A stretch of DNA of 59,463 bases from Alphaproteobacteria bacterium (lineage in GTDB: Bacteria > Pseudomonadota > Alphaproteobacteria > Thalassobaculales > Thalassobaculaceae). A program made the translations under genes and the position numbers. This document shows, piece by piece, positions 2,963 through 58,626 of this stretch (within the stretch, counting starts at the first letter, position 1; the number at the start of each line of letters is the position of its first letter). Where the stretch lies: NCBI GenBank assembly GCA_024742605.1, contig JANSYC010000020.1:1-59463 (forward strand). The letters run 5' to 3'. The notes below the pieces were generated by a model. That model was not told the origin of the DNA. It was given only the letters and a program-made list of their open reading frames with translations, and did no database searches.

Positions 2963-4267
2963 ATGAGCGAGGTTCTGGGGATCGGGATCGCCGGTCTCGG
3001 CACCGTTGGCGCGGAAGTCGCGCGCCTGATCACCGAACGGGGCGACCAACTGGCGGAACGGGCCGGACGTCCGATCAAGGTGATGGCCGTCTCCGCGCGC
3101 GACAGGACCAAGGATCGGGGGGTCGATCTCTCCGGCGTCACCTGGGAAGACGATGCCGTCGCCCTGGCCGCGCGCGACGACGTGGACCTGGTGTGCGAGG
3201 TGATCGGAGGCTCCGACGGCACCGCCAAGGACCTGGTCGAGGCGGCACTGGAGGCCGGCAAGAGTGTGGTGACGGCGAACAAGGCGCTGTTGGCCCATCA
3301 CGGGACCGATCTGGCAAAGCGGGCTGAGGCAAATGGGGTGGCGTTGGCGTATGAGGCCGCGGTCGCCGGGGGCATTCCGATCATCCGGGCCTTGCGTGAC
3401 GGCTTCGTGGCCGACCGGGTCCAGCGGGTCACCGGGATTCTGAACGGCACCTGCAATTTCATCCTGACGGTGATGCGCGAGACGGGCCGCGCGTTCGACG
3501 ACGTTCTGGCCGAGGCGCAGGCGCTCGGCTATGCCGAGGCCGACCCGTCCTTCGATGTGGACGGTGTCGATGCGGCCCACAAGCTGGCGCTGCTGACGGC
3601 CCTGTGTTTTGGGCGGGAAGTCGATTTCGCCTCGGTCCACATCGAAGGCATCCGCCGGATTTCGCCGGTCGACATCAGTTTTGCGACCGAACTCGGCTAT
3701 AAGATCAAGCTGCTCGGGGTGGCCGAGATCGACGGCGAAGGCGAGCAGGCGGGCGTCAGCCAGCGGGTTCATCCCTGCATGGTGCCGGTCTCGGCGCCGA
3801 TCGCCGGGGTCGAGGACGTGTTCAACGCGGTCACCGTGGATGCCGATCCGGTGGGCTCCGGCATGCTGCAGGGCAGGGGCGCGGGCGCGGGTCCGACAGC
3901 TTCCGCCGTCCTTGGAGATATCGTCGATATCGCAACCGGGCGCATGGCGCCGGCCTTCGGCCGTCCGGCCGTGGCTCTGGCGCCGGCGAAGGCGGCTCCT
4001 CCGTCCGCCCATGTCGGGAGTTTCTACGTCCGCCTGATGGTGATCGACAAGCCGGGTGTCCTCGCCGATATCACCGGCATCCTGCGGGACGAGCACGTGT
4101 CGATGGAAAGCATGATTCAGCGCGGCCGGGATCCGATGGAGATGGTTCCGCTGGTTCTGGTCACCCATGAGGTCGCCGAGTCCGCCATGCAGGCCGCACT
4201 CGCCAAGATCTCCGACCTCGACGTGGTGGTCGAAGAGCCGGCGATGATCCGGATCGTGGAAGGGTAG
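2963..4267 (+). CDS. hom: Homoserine dehydrogenase
   Basis: Reduces L-aspartate-4-semialdehyde to homoserine for threonine and methionine synthesis. 434 residues, the usual length of the ACT-containing monofunctional enzyme. The N-terminal Rossmann fold begins GIAGLGTVG (residues 6-14). The catalytic region includes TANKALLAHHG and GILNGTCNFIL. A C-terminal ACT domain (about 350-434) contains MVIDKPGVLADITGIL and is typically the site of threonine feedback. ATG at 2963 is chosen because a purine-rich AATGAGGATG precedes it and the Rossmann motif then starts at the expected distance; upstream in-frame codons would add non-conserved residues. glpX follows after about 120 bases and recJ after that, so the three may be co-transcribed. 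Confidence 0.96.
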   Translation: MSEVLGIGIAGLGTVGAEVARLITERGDQLAERAGRPIKVMAVSARDRTKDRGVDLSGVTWEDDAVALAARDDVDLVCEVIGGSDGTAKDLVEAALEAGKSVVTANKALLAHHGTDLAKRAEANGVALAYEAAVAGGIPIIRALRDGFVADRVQRVTGILNGTCNFILTVMRETGRAFDDVLAEAQALGYAEADPSFDVDGVDAAHKLALLTALCFGREVDFASVHIEGIRRISPVDISFATELGYKIKLLGVAEIDGEGEQAGVSQRVHPCMVPVSAPIAGVEDVFNAVTVDADPVGSGMLQGRGAGAGPTASAVLGDIVDIATGRMAPAFGRPAVALAPAKAAPPSAHVGSFYVRLMVIDKPGVLADITGILRDEHVSMESMIQRGRDPMEMVPLVLVTHEVAESAMQAALAKISDLDVVVEEPAMIRIVEG

Positions 4268-4390
4268 GCGAGGCTCTCGGCTACAAACCGGGCGTGCAGT
4301 TGGCTGCGCGCTTGACCTTTGTCGCCGTCCGCTAACATAAACGTCCAGATGAGATCCAAAAACCATTCCGCCTCGGGAGCGAACGAACCA

Positions 4391-5380
4391 ATGTCCGACT
4401 CAACGGCCTCGTCCGAAGTTTTCACCATGGACCGCAACATGGCCCTCGAGGCCGTGCGGGTCACCGAGGCCGCCGCCCTTGCCGCCTCCAAGCTGATGGG
4501 ACGCGGGGACGAAAAAGCGGCGGACCAGGCGGCGGTCGATGCGATGCGTACGGCGCTCAACAATCTCGAGATCGACGGCACGGTGGTGATCGGTGAGGGA
4601 GAGCGGGACGAGGCCCCGATGCTCTACATTGGTGAGAAGGTCGGTCGGGGCGGTCAGAAGATCGACATCGCCCTAGACCCGCTTGAGGGCACGACGATAA
4701 CCGCCAAGGGCGGACAGAACGCGCTGGCGGTCGTCGCGCTGGCCTCTGAAGGCGGGTTTCTGAATGCGCCCGACGTCTATATGGACAAGATCGCGGTCGG
4801 CGGCGGTCTGCCCCAGGGCGTGGTCGATCTGGACAAGTCAGTCGAAGAGAATCTGAAGGATCTCTCGAGCGCGAAGGGGATCGGAATCTCCGATCTGGTG
4901 GTCTGCATCCTGGACCGTCCGCGCCATGCCGAGCTGATCGCCAAGGTGCGTGAAGCGGGCGCTCGGATCACTCTGATCTCCGACGGCGATGTGTCCGGCG
5001 TTATCGCGACATCAGAGCCGACCAGCGGCATCGATCTCTACATGGGCTCGGGTGGAGCGCCGGAAGGCGTGCTGGCGGCGGCCGCCCTGCGGTGTATCGG
5101 CGGTCAGATCCAGGGACGGCTGCTGTTCCGCAACGATGACGAGCGGGCCCGCGCCAAGCGCTGGGGCATCAGCGATCTGGATCTGAAATACGACATCATG
5201 GATCTGGCCGGCGGCGATGTGATGTTCGCGGCCACCGGCGTGACCAACGGCTCGATGCTGCGCGGCGTGCGGCGCTATTCGACCGGCGCCGTTACCCATT
5301 CGATCATCATGCGGTCGAAGACGGGCACCGTGCGCACGGTCGAGGCGACCCATGATTTCACCCGCAAGCCGGCGGAGTAA
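4391..5380 (+). CDS. glpX: Fructose-1,6-bisphosphatase, class II (GlpX)
   Basis: Hydrolyses fructose-1,6-bisphosphate to fructose-6-phosphate in gluconeogenesis, as a metal-dependent cytoplasmic enzyme. 329 residues, normal for GlpX. Signature stretches are VIGEGERDEAPMLYIGE, the LDPLEGT metal/phosphate motif, and YMGSGGAPEGVLAAAALRC. ATG at 4391 follows GGGAG at 4375-4379 and starts the protein where homologues start (MSDS...FTMDRNMALE). An earlier in-frame ATG at 4349 has no ribosome-binding site. It lies between hom and recJ on the same strand, a neighbourhood seen in other alphaproteobacteria. Together with pgi and the glgCA pair further along it supports flux toward sugar phosphates and glycogen. 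Confidence 0.96.
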   Translation: MSDSTASSEVFTMDRNMALEAVRVTEAAALAASKLMGRGDEKAADQAAVDAMRTALNNLEIDGTVVIGEGERDEAPMLYIGEKVGRGGQKIDIALDPLEGTTITAKGGQNALAVVALASEGGFLNAPDVYMDKIAVGGGLPQGVVDLDKSVEENLKDLSSAKGIGISDLVVCILDRPRHAELIAKVREAGARITLISDGDVSGVIATSEPTSGIDLYMGSGGAPEGVLAAAALRCIGGQIQGRLLFRNDDERARAKRWGISDLDLKYDIMDLAGGDVMFAATGVTNGSMLRGVRRYSTGAVTHSIIMRSKTGTVRTVEATHDFTRKPAE

Positions 5381-5389
5381 GCTGACGAC

Positions 5390-7189
5390 GTGACCCCTCC
5401 GGACAGCGACAGCTCGGCCTTCCTGGGTGTCGGGCACTCGGCCTCGGGCAAGCGCTGGGTCTTGCGCGGTGGCGGAGCGGACGCCCGGGAGGTTGAGCGG
5501 CAGGGCTTGGCGATTTCCGAACGGTTCGGGGTTCCTGAGATCGTCGGGCGCCTGATTTCGGCGCGCGGGGTCGACCTGGACGCTGTCGAGCGGTTTCTCG
5601 ACCCGACCCTCAAGGCCGAACTTCCCGATCCCAGCCTGTTCAAGGATATGGACACGGCCGCCGGCATTCTGGCGGATCTGGTGGCGGACGGCGGAACCGT
5701 CGGGGTGTTCTCGGATTATGACGTGGACGGTGGGACATCGGCGGCCCAGGTCCTGCGCTTCATGGACCAGTTGGGCATCAAGACCCTGCTGCACGTGCCG
5801 GACCGGATCGACGAGGGGTACGGGCCGAACCTGCCGGCGATCCGGGATCTCAGTGCCCGCGGCGCCGATGTGATCCTCTGCCTGGACTGCGGCATCCTGG
5901 CCATCGAGACCTTGGGGGAGGCGGCGCGGGAGGGCATCACCCTGATCGTGGTCGACCACCATATCGCCGAGGTCGAGCTGCCGCCGGTTGCCGCCGTGGT
6001 CAATCCCAATCGCTTGGATCAGGACGGCGCCTTCGGCCATCTGGCGGCCTGCGGCGTGACCTTTCTCACCCTGGTGGCGCTCAACCGGACGCTGCGGGAG
6101 CGGGGCTGGTTTAAAGAGCATGCGGCACCTGATCTGCTGGGGCTGCTCGATCTGGTGGCTCTGGGCACCGTCTGTGACGTGGTACCGCTGCGGGGACTCA
6201 ACCGGGCCTTTGTCAGTCAAGGCCTGAAGGTGATGGCGCAGCGCCGTAATCCGGGCCTGGTCGCGCTGTCCGGTGTGGCCGGGCTCGACCGCAAGCCGGA
6301 TCCCTATCATCTGGGTTATGTCCTGGGGCCGCGGATCAATGCCGGCGGCCGTGTCGGCCGGGCCGATCTCGGCGCGCGCCTGCTGTCGTCCAACGACCCG
6401 GGCGAGGTCGGCCCGATCGCGGAGGAACTGGACCGGCTGAACCTGGAGCGCCGGGCGATCGAGGCCGAGATTCTGGAGCGCGCGATCGAACAGGCCGAAG
6501 GGCAGGGGCCGTCGCCTGTTGTCGTGGTGTCCGGCGAGGGCTGGCATCCGGGCGTGGTGGGGATTGTCGCCAGCCGCTTGAAGGACCGGTTCAACCGTCC
6601 GGCCTGTGTGATCGGGATCACGAAGGGGATCGGGACCGGGTCCGGCCGTTCGGTCGCGGGTGTCGGCCTCGGTTCCGCCGTGATCGCGGCGCACCAGGCC
6701 GGGATTCTGATCAAGGGCGGCGGCCACGCGATGGCGGCCGGCTTTTCCATCGAGGCCTCGAAAATCGATGCCTTGAGGGACTTTCTGGCGGAGCGCATTC
6801 TGACCGATCTGGCGGGCGCGGATCTGGTTCCGGAGCTTTCGGTGGACGGTGCGCTGAGCCCGGCGGGGGCGACGGCGGCGCTGGTCAATGCGGTCTCGCG
6901 GATCGGTCCGTTCGGCACCGGAAATTCCGAGCCGCGTTTCGTGATCTCGAACGCCAAGATCGTCCGCGCCGACGTGGTCGGCCAGAGTCACATTCGCTGT
7001 ATCCTGACCGGCGGGGACGGCGGCAAGCTCAAGGCCATCGCCTTTCGCGCGACCGACGGGCCGATCGGACCGGTGCTCCTGAAGGCGGGCGGGCTGCCGG
7101 TCCATCTGGCCGGGCACCTTCGGCTGGACGATTTCGCCGGGGGCGATGCGGTGCAGTTGGTCGTCGATGATGTGGTCGCGGCGACATAA
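5390..7189 (+). CDS. recJ: Single-stranded-DNA-specific exonuclease RecJ
   Basis: 5'-to-3' ssDNA exonuclease of recombination and mismatch repair. 599 residues, normal length. DHH-family phosphoesterase motifs are intact: FSDYDVDGGTSA (metal-binding Asp109 and Asp111), CLDCG near 165, and VVDHH with Asp189-His190-His191. The DHHA1 domain follows, with the glycine-rich substrate motif GGGHAMAAGFS, then the C-terminal OB-fold part. Start is GTG at 5390, nine bases after the glpX stop; no better ATG exists before the conserved region. The close spacing suggests co-transcription with glpX. A hairpin at 7219-7236 downstream is a candidate end of the transcript. Confidence 0.95.
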   Translation: MTPPDSDSSAFLGVGHSASGKRWVLRGGGADAREVERQGLAISERFGVPEIVGRLISARGVDLDAVERFLDPTLKAELPDPSLFKDMDTAAGILADLVADGGTVGVFSDYDVDGGTSAAQVLRFMDQLGIKTLLHVPDRIDEGYGPNLPAIRDLSARGADVILCLDCGILAIETLGEAAREGITLIVVDHHIAEVELPPVAAVVNPNRLDQDGAFGHLAACGVTFLTLVALNRTLRERGWFKEHAAPDLLGLLDLVALGTVCDVVPLRGLNRAFVSQGLKVMAQRRNPGLVALSGVAGLDRKPDPYHLGYVLGPRINAGGRVGRADLGARLLSSNDPGEVGPIAEELDRLNLERRAIEAEILERAIEQAEGQGPSPVVVVSGEGWHPGVVGIVASRLKDRFNRPACVIGITKGIGTGSGRSVAGVGLGSAVIAAHQAGILIKGGGHAMAAGFSIEASKIDALRDFLAERILTDLAGADLVPELSVDGALSPAGATAALVNAVSRIGPFGTGNSEPRFVISNAKIVRADVVGQSHIRCILTGGDGGKLKAIAFRATDGPIGPVLLKAGGLPVHLAGHLRLDDFAGGDAVQLVVDDVVAAT

Positions 7190-55813: not shown

Positions 55814-56143
55814 ATGCGGAGATGCATCGCAGTTTTGGCGTTGGCCACGTTTCTCGTCGGCGCATCGCTGCAGTCGGCCAAGGCGGAAGGCCTCAGCACG
55901 GAAACCCTGGCCTACACCTTCGTCCTCGCCCTGGCGGGAACGGCAGCCGGTGCTGCCGTGATGCCGGTCGTCGCGCCGATGGCCGCGCCGGCGGTGGCCG
56001 GCGCCTACGCAACGACCGCCGGAGCGGTAAACGGCGCATTGGTGGGTTTCGGGTCGTTGATCATGTTGGAGCCGCGCTCGATGGGGGCCGTCCTCGGGAT
56101 GGGTGCCGGGCTGATGAGCGGACTGTATTTCTTCGGCGATTGA
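55814..56143 (+). CDS. Small glycine-rich membrane protein, first gene of an undescribed three-gene locus
   Basis: 109 residues. A signal peptide (MRRCIAVLALATFLVGASLQ, predicted cleavage after AKA at 24) is followed by hydrophobic Gly/Ala-rich segments around 33-70 and 80-107 (GAVLGMGAGLMSGLYFFG). They resemble glycine-zipper membrane helices, so it may insert or oligomerise in a membrane. A GGGAG precedes the ATG by about nine bases. The two larger paralogues follow 72 bases downstream in the same direction and probably share a transcript. I do not recognise the family. Confidence 0.7.
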   Translation: MRRCIAVLALATFLVGASLQSAKAEGLSTETLAYTFVLALAGTAAGAAVMPVVAPMAAPAVAGAYATTAGAVNGALVGFGSLIMLEPRSMGAVLGMGAGLMSGLYFFGD

Positions 56144-56215
56144 GGCATGTCGCAAGGGGAGGGGACGTGCGCCATAGGTCCGTGTCCGTGGAGCAATTCT
56201 GGAGAAGAGGCTCTC

Positions 56216-57427
56216 ATGTTGAGACGCAGGATCGTACGCTTAGGCGCCGCTGCCATGGGGATGTTCTTATGGTCCGGGGCGGCATGGGCACTGCAGGTCG
56301 GATCGGACGTCTCCGGCGAAGCGGAACTGGCGCAACGTCAGATCCCGCTGCCTGAAGGCGAATGGACGGTTGCCGGAGTCGGCACCAATACCTTGGTGAG
56401 CGGCGATCCCGGAGCATTCGGGACGATTGAGAACGCCGTACTGGTGCGGACCGGCTCCGACGGCGCGATCGACGCGGTGATCGAACTGAACGTGAACCGT
56501 TTATCGGTTCAGGGTGGCTGGGGAGTTGCCGCTGCCTGCACCAAGACGGTGAGCCTTTCGGCCGTGGCCTTCTACAAGACCAAGGTGGACGGGTTCTGTC
56601 TTTTCGTGGCGCCCACCGATCTCGGTGTTCCCAACGCACCCGGACCGGACGCATGGACCGAGGTGCGATCCATCCTGCATGCCGATGGTGCCACGCCTTC
56701 GCCAACCTGGTTGACAGTCGGCTATCGGGTCTCCGATCGCGGAGATGTGCTGGATGTGCGGTATCACTTCGACCCCAAGGCGCTTGGGCTTGAGCCGGTT
56801 ACCGGCGATGCGTGGACGCTGGAGTCGGTGCTGCAGACACCGGACCGGTACGCTGCGCTCAATCAGTTGAACGCATGGGGCGGTCTCGCGGCTGGCCTCG
56901 TTGAGGACGGCTTTCGCGGCGCGCTCGACGGCCGGATGACCGAAGCGCCGCTGCCGAATCCCTGGGAGGTCCCTGCCGCCCGTGTGACTGCGGTCGACGA
57001 CAAGCAGGACGCGGCTGCACCGGCCGCTGCAGCACCGATTGGTCAGGTCAGCCCGTCGGCCAGGATCCAGGCGCTGGACGCGTTGCTCGCCAAAGGCGCG
57101 ATCAGCCCGGAAGACCACGCTGCCTATATGGGCGCGATCAGGAGTGAGAACGAAAAGGCTCCTGAGACGGCCACGGACTATTACAGCACGCTCTGGGCCA
57201 AGGTTGTGTCCTATAACTTCTTTCGGGTCTCAGTGGACTACCTGTTGGCCTTCGTTGTAACGGTCAATTCCCTCATCTCCGGTTACATCACCGCAGCGAT
57301 CGTCGCGACCCACAGCGTCGTCCAGGTCTTCAACGACATGTGGTGGGACAGCTACATTCTGTCGACTACCAAGGGAGAAACGGTCGACTTCGTTTATATC
57401 GGCGCCGGCAAGGGAGCGGATTCATGA
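56216..57427 (+). CDS. Secreted SHOCT/DUF2061-like protein, paralogue A
   Basis: 403 residues. Signal peptide (1-25, ending GAAWA). A novel domain at about 27-235 holds QIPLPEGEWTVAGVGTNT, GWGVAAACTKT, FCLFV and TVGYRVSDRGDVLDVRYHFDPKALG; Cys108 and Cys128 may form a disulfide. An Ala/Pro linker leads to a SHOCT-like helical hairpin (281-310, RIQALDALLAKGAISPEDHAAYMGAI). Then comes a two-helix segment at about 325-375 (WAKVVSYNFFRVSVDYLLAFVV...NDMWWDSY) that resembles DUF2061 but has lost its HE pair. ATG at 56216 follows GGAGAAGAGG. The stop overlaps the start of paralogue B in ATGA. No function is known. Confidence 0.75.
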   Translation: MLRRRIVRLGAAAMGMFLWSGAAWALQVGSDVSGEAELAQRQIPLPEGEWTVAGVGTNTLVSGDPGAFGTIENAVLVRTGSDGAIDAVIELNVNRLSVQGGWGVAAACTKTVSLSAVAFYKTKVDGFCLFVAPTDLGVPNAPGPDAWTEVRSILHADGATPSPTWLTVGYRVSDRGDVLDVRYHFDPKALGLEPVTGDAWTLESVLQTPDRYAALNQLNAWGGLAAGLVEDGFRGALDGRMTEAPLPNPWEVPAARVTAVDDKQDAAAPAAAAPIGQVSPSARIQALDALLAKGAISPEDHAAYMGAIRSENEKAPETATDYYSTLWAKVVSYNFFRVSVDYLLAFVVTVNSLISGYITAAIVATHSVVQVFNDMWWDSYILSTTKGETVDFVYIGAGKGADS

Positions 57428-58626
57428 GGATGGGGGTTAAGGTCCTTTGGGCGGGATTGAGCCTGAGCATTCTTGGGATGCTCGGTGCGGCGGCGGACGC
57501 ATCCGCGCAGGTGGTCGGCGAGCAGGCGACGGGCAACCTCCTGGTCGCGGGCAAACAGGTTCCGCTGCCGCCGGGCACCTTTACCGTTATCTCGGTGGAC
57601 ACGGCTCCGGCGCGCGTCCAGGAAGTTGAAACCTTGGTCGAGCGGCTTGATCTGGGGCCGATCCAAACGGTTGTTCTGGCCAGCGCGGCAGAGGGACGGG
57701 TGAACAGTGTGGTCGAGATCTCGGCCAACCTCATTCCGCACCACGACGGCTGGGGAACGACGGCGGACTGTACCCGTACGGATCTCTACGCCGCCGTCAC
57801 CAACTACAAGAGCGGCTGGGACGTTTCCTGCCTTTATCTCAAGCCGATTGCCGTCGACGGGCGTGAGGGCATGCCGGGCGGTTCGCCGCTGATCGCCTAC
57901 GCGAAGCTCCAAGAGGCCGAGGCAAGCGATTTCTGGATCACTGCAGGTTTGCGGGTCGCCAACCGACAGGATGTGCTCGACGTGCGTTATCATTTCGACC
58001 CTGCGATGTTCGGGGCTTCGGCCTCGGCGGCAACGGCTGACACCTGGTCGCCGGCGGTGATCGAAAGGAATACGGCCCGGCTGATCGTCGTAAAGGATAT
58101 AGCGGCTTGGGCCAGCGCCATGGTTGTGGCCCTCGACCAGGGTCTGCGGGGGCGTTTGGCACCGGATCAGGTGGCCCTGCCGATCTCGGGTTCCTCGTCG
58201 GCGGTGGAGGGGAGCGGTGCTGAAGCGGCAAGTGTCGCCAATGCGGTTCGCGCGAAGGAGTTGCTGGCTCTGCGGGAGTCGGGTGAGCTGTCCCAGGACG
58301 AGTATCAGCGGCAGATGGCTCTTGTGAGTTCCGGTGCGGCGGCGGCAGCGGCGGCTGGCGGCTGGACCTACGCTCAGGTGGCGGGCTGGAAGGCGGCCAC
58401 ATACCGGGTGATGGTGACGGCCGTGAATGTCGGCATTGACTATATGTTCATCGGCCGACCGTTCGCTGCCGGCGTGCTGGTTATCCTGCAGGTGGTTGTG
58501 AACACCACCAAGTTCTTCTTCCATGAAATGCTTTGGCAGGACGTGTTCGGTGTCGGACCGCTCCAGCGCGAGAACCCGCGGGTGATCGAACTCGGCCCGC
58601 AACTGGTGACGGCTGCGACGCAATAG
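57424..58626 (+). CDS. Secreted SHOCT/DUF2061-like protein, paralogue B
   Basis: 400 residues. Signal peptide (1-28, cleavage after ASA). The same novel domain as paralogue A at about 30-245: QVPLPPGTFTVISVDT, GWGTTADCTRT, VSCLYLKPI and NRQDVLDVRYHFDPAMFG. Cys116 and Cys136 have the same 20-residue spacing as in A. A Ser/Ala-rich linker precedes a SHOCT-like hairpin (275-301, RAKELLALRESGELSQDEYQRQMALV). The C-terminal DUF2061-like two-helix domain (about 321-375) is well preserved: GWKAATYRVMV...NTTKFFFHEMLWQDVFG, including the HE-x-x-W motif. ATG 57424 overlaps the stop of A and has AAGGGAG upstream. Function unknown; envelope location inferred. Confidence 0.78.
   Translation: MRMGVKVLWAGLSLSILGMLGAAADASAQVVGEQATGNLLVAGKQVPLPPGTFTVISVDTAPARVQEVETLVERLDLGPIQTVVLASAAEGRVNSVVEISANLIPHHDGWGTTADCTRTDLYAAVTNYKSGWDVSCLYLKPIAVDGREGMPGGSPLIAYAKLQEAEASDFWITAGLRVANRQDVLDVRYHFDPAMFGASASAATADTWSPAVIERNTARLIVVKDIAAWASAMVVALDQGLRGRLAPDQVALPISGSSSAVEGSGAEAASVANAVRAKELLALRESGELSQDEYQRQMALVSSGAAAAAAAGGWTYAQVAGWKAATYRVMVTAVNVGIDYMFIGRPFAAGVLVILQVVVNTTKFFFHEMLWQDVFGVGPLQRENPRVIELGPQLVTAATQ

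Follow-up and report, generated by a model that had tools for sequence, protein, structure and literature searches.

What is encoded by two tandem paralogous genes and the small gene in front of them in an alphaproteobacterium of the family Thalassobaculaceae? The genes, called A, B, and the small gene in the following, are located on contig JANSYC010000020.1 of assembly GCA_024742605.1, of which positions 1 to 59,463 were analyzed as a single stretch, referred to as the window (contig C77 of genome G000 in our numbering). The source genome is available as a draft assembly of 4.47 Mb, divided into 187 contigs, and its family mates include Thalassobaculum. Since the three genes are inherited together and the N-terminal domain of the two larger proteins is not recognized by the family libraries searched, the locus probably codes for an undescribed complex of the cell envelope. 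In the form proposed here, which we judge to be evenly poised between right and wrong, A and B would constitute a non-catalytic periplasmic complex anchored in the inner membrane, with the small protein as its membrane partner.

Gene Organization and Conservation

The small gene (55814-56143) codes for a protein of 109 amino acids with a signal-like hydrophobic N-terminus and three subsequent Gly/Ala-rich hydrophobic stretches, as judged from hydropathy. It is followed on the same forward strand by gene A (56216-57427, 403 amino acids) and gene B (57424-58626, 400 amino acids), the stop codon of A and the start codon of B overlapping by the four bases ATGA (57424-57427). The two proteins align over 383 amino acids with 26% identity (E-value 4e-31), indicating that their paralogy is not due to chance, and have the motifs PLPxGx[WF]TV, GWGx4CT[KR]T and LDVRYHFDP in common. 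Hydropathy and AlphaFold2 (AF2) models show the same architecture for both, consisting of a hydrophobic N-terminus, a domain of 200 residues (N-domain), a linker, a helical hairpin, and a hydrophobic two-helix segment. Note that signal peptides were called from hydropathy alone, not from a signal-peptide predictor. The GC content of the trio (63.8%, compared to 64.7% for the window) and its high third-position GC are what normal coding sequence of this contig would show.

When 98 genomes were searched and their open reading frames (ORFs) compared, A and B turned up as adjacent genes in 7 of the 36 family genomes, including that of the window. A profile of the small protein matched 7 of 61 genomes (again including that of the window), which are the same seven that contain A and B, and yielded no match at an E-value of 0.001 in the remaining 54. 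The three genes are adjacent and occur in the order small gene, A, B in all seven genomes. The initial annotation of this DNA, which was made from the sequence alone, had described the overlapping genes of equal architecture and the small membrane protein ahead of them, and had proposed to look for the three genes together elsewhere. The described layout is borne out, and conservation of the pair extends beyond this strain. Further A/B pairs exist beyond the family, for example in G383, a member of another family (loci L035 and L069, which represent one contig), where an ORF resembling the small protein also precedes the pair. Two other pairs come from metagenome-assembled genomes (MAGs) with the unchecked record labels Asaia bogorensis and Reyranella (L036 and L038), whose contigs start just upstream of the pair, so that the position of a small gene falls outside the sequence. 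Among the 11 A/B pairs examined, 10 show a four-base overlap of stop and start codons, which reads ATGA in seven, TTGA in two, and GTGA in one case, the latter three presupposing non-ATG starts.

The genes around the trio differ between the genera examined. In the window, the annotated neighbors are phosphoglucose isomerase, acyl-CoA dehydrogenase, and an M24 peptidase, while the trio of L021 is flanked by transport permeases, with fur at a distance of about 1.3 kb, and that of L023 by a TPR/glycosyltransferase gene and a methyladenine-glycosylase-like gene; the genes flanking the pair of L036 include those for a chromate transporter and for a GGDEF/EAL protein. Because of this variation, the trio looks like the unit under selection. 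Inspection of the regions upstream of the small gene in seven genomes, done by eye only and with the start in L022 taken two codons off, did not lead to the recognition of a common site.

Two of the trio loci show peculiarities. Thalassobaculum fulvum (L022) carries a second copy of the small gene just downstream of B (5529-5852, reverse strand), and a frameshift, either genuine or due to misassembly, splits the B gene in the MAG G022 (L026, 7040-8923, reverse strand).

The N-Terminal Domain Represents an Uncatalogued Sequence Family

The N-domains comprise residues of about 27-238 in A (56294-56929) and of about 30-245 in B (57511-58158), and are matched by the N-domain profile A5 at 56291-56929 and 57514-58161, respectively. 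Each protein contains only two Cys, which the initial annotation had correctly placed 20 residues apart: Cys108 and Cys128 in A (56537-56599), and Cys116 and Cys136 in B (57769-57831). Exactly two Cys past the signal-like region, spaced by 20-21 residues, are present in all 17 aligned A/B proteins (8 B and 9 A). In a wider alignment of 26 N-domains, only the L, P, and G of the LPxG motif are invariant, followed by W, L, C, C, and W with a conservation of at least 90%; both Cys occur in 24 of the rows. No catalytic signature was seen among the conserved positions of this alignment, and no Pfam or NCBIfam family convincingly matches any of its 26 rows (best E-values 0.014 for Pfam and 0.067 for NCBIfam, in one row each).

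The domain was found in at least 22 of 385 genomes of a class-wide sample of Alphaproteobacteria (20 of 277 genera) and in at least 5 of 397 genomes of a phylum-wide sample, one of which (G676) lies outside this class. These numbers were drawn from profile A5, because among the 48 of 385 class genomes with a match to the whole-protein profile A2, many were hit solely at the C-terminal end, which corresponds to the DUF2061 family (PF09834); they are minimum numbers, since scoring was limited to the best few candidates in each genome. Adjacent N-domains occur in 8 of the 22 positive class genomes (G000, G026, G216, G249, G333, G338, G383, and G413). The pair in G338, in which the N-domain is combined with a SHOCT module (PF09851), is joined by TAATG, and the N-domain plus SHOCT combination recurs in other genomes without a DUF2061 match. 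A lipobox-like start was recognized by a simple pattern in 5 of 19 relatives, one of them doubtful. Together with the signal-like starts and the conserved Cys pair, these starts argue for the location of A and B in the cell envelope that the initial annotation had assumed.

Some relatives show other arrangements of the domain. Two N-domains are contained in one chain in L072 (330-1757, forward strand), the second N-domain runs over into the following ORF in L073 (6350-7887, forward strand), and one N-domain is interrupted in G333. In L071 (5964-7247, forward strand), the chain extends beyond the N-domain by about 190 C-terminal residues that have no Pfam match.

Predicted Fold of the N-Terminal Domain

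AF2 models of A and B were obtained from 17-row alignments with mean predicted local distance difference test (pLDDT) values of 73.6 for A and 76.6 for B, the means of 10-residue blocks within the N-domain being 69-94 in A and 78-95 in B (residues 31-240). Structural comparison by VIA-align places Mog1 (1eq6) first for both models with a Z-score of 7.5 and 9-13% sequence identity, at root-mean-square deviations (rmsd) of 4.0 over 141 residues for A and 4.5 over 150 residues for B. The next rows for B are the PknH ectodomain (7.4), CyanoP (6.7), BT_1490 (6.4), PsbP (6.1), TiME (6.0), and DcrB (5.8), with Tsi3 at 5.3; those for A are CyanoP (7.0), PknH (6.8), TiME (6.5), BT_1490 (6.0), and PsbP (5.8), with DcrB at 4.9, Tsi3 at 4.8, and human Mog1 and SciW at 4.4. 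Mog1, PsbP/CyanoP, DcrB, the PknH ectodomain, TiME, and Tsi3 may be regarded as one Mog1/PsbP-like group, a grouping that in part follows PMC7716261. As one fold group heads both lists, the models lean marginally toward a Mog1/PsbP-like fold. The claim of a novel N-domain is thus to be divided: by sequence the domain is uncatalogued, while its predicted fold leans to a known group. No enzyme fold turned up.

Within the Mog1/PsbP-like group, DcrB is reported to be periplasmic and anchored in the membrane (PMC7716261). The N-domain family of A and B is set apart from this group by its paired Cys and the LPxGxW motif. PA1624 of Pseudomonas aeruginosa, an orphan protein of the periplasm, has a disulfide and a distant Mog1p/PsbP-like domain; its second domain, unlike that of A and B, is OmpA-like, and the protein was found to be monomeric (PMC7716261). 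A resemblance of the N-domain to protein S (beta/gamma-crystallin) among solved structures, with E-values of 0.016 and 0.0086 over 57 and 41 positions near LPxG, was set aside as short motif resemblance, because protein S is not among the structural rows shown.

The C-Terminal Modules

The membrane segment of B (residues 323-372, 58390-58539) scores 37.8 bits for DUF2061 in a Pfam scan, well over the curated cut-off of 23.1 bits. The corresponding hydrophobic two-helix segment of A (residues 328-377, 57197-57346) stays below it with 8.8 bits, and the A orthologue in L036 passes it with 23.2 bits. The hairpins in front of these segments comprise residues 280-311 in A (57053-57148) and 265-310 in B (58216-58353), with AF2 helices at 280-292 and 298-311, and at 265-285 and 291-310, respectively. 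They resemble SHOCT, but score only 13.8 bits (A) and 16.1 bits (B) at a curated cut-off of 27 bits, and a SHOCT search of the source genome yielded no match at an E-value of 0.001. Among the 14 rows of alignment A2, DUF2061 is found in 13 and SHOCT in 7 at E-values up to 1. At the same limit, SHOCT appears in 5 of 10 scanned N-domain relatives: it is over the cut-off in one of them, a protein of L084 carrying the same N-domain (29.3 bits), near it in one L077 protein (23.9 bits), and weaker in L076, the other L077 protein, and the B protein of L036. A similar-looking C-terminal stretch in an L110 protein gave no SHOCT match. As judged from these scores and models, the assignment of both modules by the initial annotation appears right, with DUF2061 firm in B, sub-threshold in A, and SHOCT as the weaker call in both proteins.

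A HE-x2-W motif at the end of the second helix is typical of the DUF2061 family. It is present as HEMLW in B and is conserved in 8 of 8 B rows and in none of 9 A rows, which all contain [NS]D-x2-WD instead (ND in eight, SD in one; NDMWW in A of the window) and continue as [NS]D-x2-WD-[SN]-Y. B of G022, with its frameshift, and the pair of L024 are not included in these numbers. The HE motif of A has therefore not degenerated, as the initial annotation had it, but is replaced by a conserved one; A and B are two subtypes with two kept versions of the motif, which supports the suggested division of labor in this form. Compared to other DUF2061 proteins, the anchor in the trio proteins stands behind a signal-like start and a domain of 200 residues, and the HE of B corresponds to [NS]D in A. 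The matches to profile A2 confined to its DUF2061 end are open frames of mostly 57-140 amino acids, with a few larger ones.

The suggestion of SHOCT as a mediator of oligomerization is weakened by the report of its discoverers, whose test did not find multimerization (PMC3581485), and a paper of 2024 proposes membrane localization for SHOCT instead (PMC11237479). Most SHOCT-like fusions are deemed intracellular (PMC11237479), whereas the sub-threshold hairpins of A and B are predicted to be periplasmic. DUF2061 and SHOCT, or SHOCT and PsbP, were not found together in the open-license full-text literature, outside of which most subscription papers lie.

The source genome harbors a second locus with DUF2061-like hairpins (L086, G000:C136), consisting of three tandem genes with signal-like starts (3447-4058, 4154-4693, and 4700-5263, forward strand). 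By eye, two such hairpins were recognized in each of their products, two of which were also matched by profile A2 at its DUF2061 end.

Proposed Function and Alternatives

Taken together, these features may be arranged into the following model. A and B would be exported via the Sec pathway, placing the mature N-domains, probably stabilized by the conserved disulfide, in the periplasm, while the C-terminal two-helix hairpins of the DUF2061 type would anchor both proteins in the inner membrane, with a short tail at the C-terminus and the SHOCT-like hairpin beside the membrane. Translational coupling would yield A and B in matched amounts, the two would work as an obligate pair, probably a hetero-oligomer of two pseudo-equivalent domains, and the small Gly/Ala-rich membrane protein may pack against the anchors. 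A hetero-oligomer of A and B, as already envisaged in the initial annotation, is plausible. The most likely reading of the N-domain is that of a non-catalytic Mog1/PsbP-like domain for binding or assembly, and the complex would thus serve as a periplasm-facing binding scaffold or sensor of the inner membrane rather than an enzyme. A more far-reaching version would be a new envelope machine, in which obligate A/B hetero-oligomers of Mog1/PsbP-like ectodomains are mounted on paired DUF2061 hairpins, the SHOCT hairpins and the small protein form a ring or channel in the membrane, and the whole would be the most complex representative of an uncatalogued family of exported domains across the Alphaproteobacteria; we consider this quite unlikely.

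Several observations weigh against the proposed A/B complex with a Mog1/PsbP-like fold. The best Z-score of 7.5 falls into the range of 7-8 that, according to the guidance of the tool, models lacking a clear match typically reach, is nearly tied with the PknH and CyanoP rows, and belongs to a list in which UTRA domains, starting at Z 5.7, come after the Mog1-type rows and are interspersed with them. The two models do not count as independent, because they share one alignment, and their anchor helices are of low confidence (10-residue pLDDT means of about 56-68 in B and 37-57 in A). Foldseek places UTRA domains first with E-values of about 0.01 (0.009-0.02) and reports nothing below 0.001, and an hhalign comparison to a DcrB alignment of only three rows gave a probability of 0.1. 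The N-domain is single in 13 of the 22 positive genomes and present as two distant copies in another (G366), and the second domain is interrupted in G413. Its combination with SHOCT recurs without a DUF2061 match and is thus not confined to this locus. The N-domain tree fits one old duplication leading to A and B without proving it: a single such event appears in 39% of the bootstrap trees, and A and B each need two changes. The two N-domains within one chain of G249 are sisters in this tree and thus represent a separate duplication, not an A-B fusion. Finally, the most distant pair, that of G216, has a 10-base gap in place of the four-base overlap.

The appearance of UTRA in the structure comparisons leads to the alternative of a ligand-sensing pair, whose N-domains would bind a small molecule or lipid like UTRA effector domains, with the anchor relaying the signal or retaining the protein and the trio serving as an accessory in nutrient or metal stress. 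This is rather unlikely, as the Foldseek alignments to UTRA have rmsd values of about 9-10 and query TM (template modeling) scores of about 0.2, the UTRA rows of VIA-align (up to Z 5.7 in B and 5.6 in A) are outscored by the Mog1-type rows in both models, an hhalign comparison of the N-domain to a 10-row UTRA alignment (PF07702) indicated no relation (probability 0.2), and UTRA is absent from the Pfam results of the 26 N-domains. A link to metals or stress is suggested by the listing of a DUF2061 gene as iron-responsive in Caulobacter (PMC3751524), by the impaired polymyxin B resistance of a DUF2061 mutant of P. aeruginosa (PMC12632274), and by the fur gene near the L021 trio, which has close homologues at a like place in L022 and L026; however, this neighborhood was seen in only one genus of the family.

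The structural neighbors of the N-domain can also be read in another way. PsbP is an assembly-type factor for photosystem II. The Eag/DUF1795 proteins are chaperones of the Mog1/PsbP fold for type VI secretion effectors (PMC12881460). A and B may act as assembly or chaperone factors for an envelope machine, like other proteins of this fold. In agreement with this, such proteins are among the best structural neighbors, and the N-domain gene directly precedes a ShlB/POTRA two-partner-secretion gene in two genera, the transporters being 56% identical. We nevertheless give this possibility only a minor chance, since the link by fold is marginal and the trio lacks a constant neighbor among the flanks examined. 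An immunity or conflict element, in which the tandem envelope paralogues protect from a toxin, appears highly improbable. The patchy presence in 7 of the 36 family genomes (the window's among them) and the occurrence of Tsi3 among the structural rows of both models are in its favor, but the neighbors in the window, listed above, speak against it, as do searches for related systems: PADLOC-DB returned no family at E-values up to 1 for the three proteins, PHROGs gave only weak matches of unknown function (E-values 0.0011 for B and 0.2 for the small protein), and relatives of B, the sole query used there, were not found in viral contigs or in phage and plasmid collections.

Whichever role applies, the N-domain defines a putatively exported domain family in Alphaproteobacteria that lacks a convincing counterpart in Pfam or NCBIfam. 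The trio is a small gene set that stays together in each of the seven family genomes possessing it, which makes two orphan modules, DUF2061 and SHOCT, testable side by side. Should the proposed membrane-anchored A-B complex exist, it would reveal the role of DUF2061 hairpins in a membrane.

Additional genes were observed next to some of the relatives. The loci in which an N-domain gene precedes a ShlB/POTRA transporter gene are 4203-7510 of L079 and 2827-5289 of L081, with a FecR-domain gene upstream in L079. A third gene follows the A/B pair in both L036 (2663-3235) and L038 (2789-3382) on the forward strand; it is 59-60% identical between these two MAGs, and its L036 version shows a weak, sub-threshold match to a Sensor domain.

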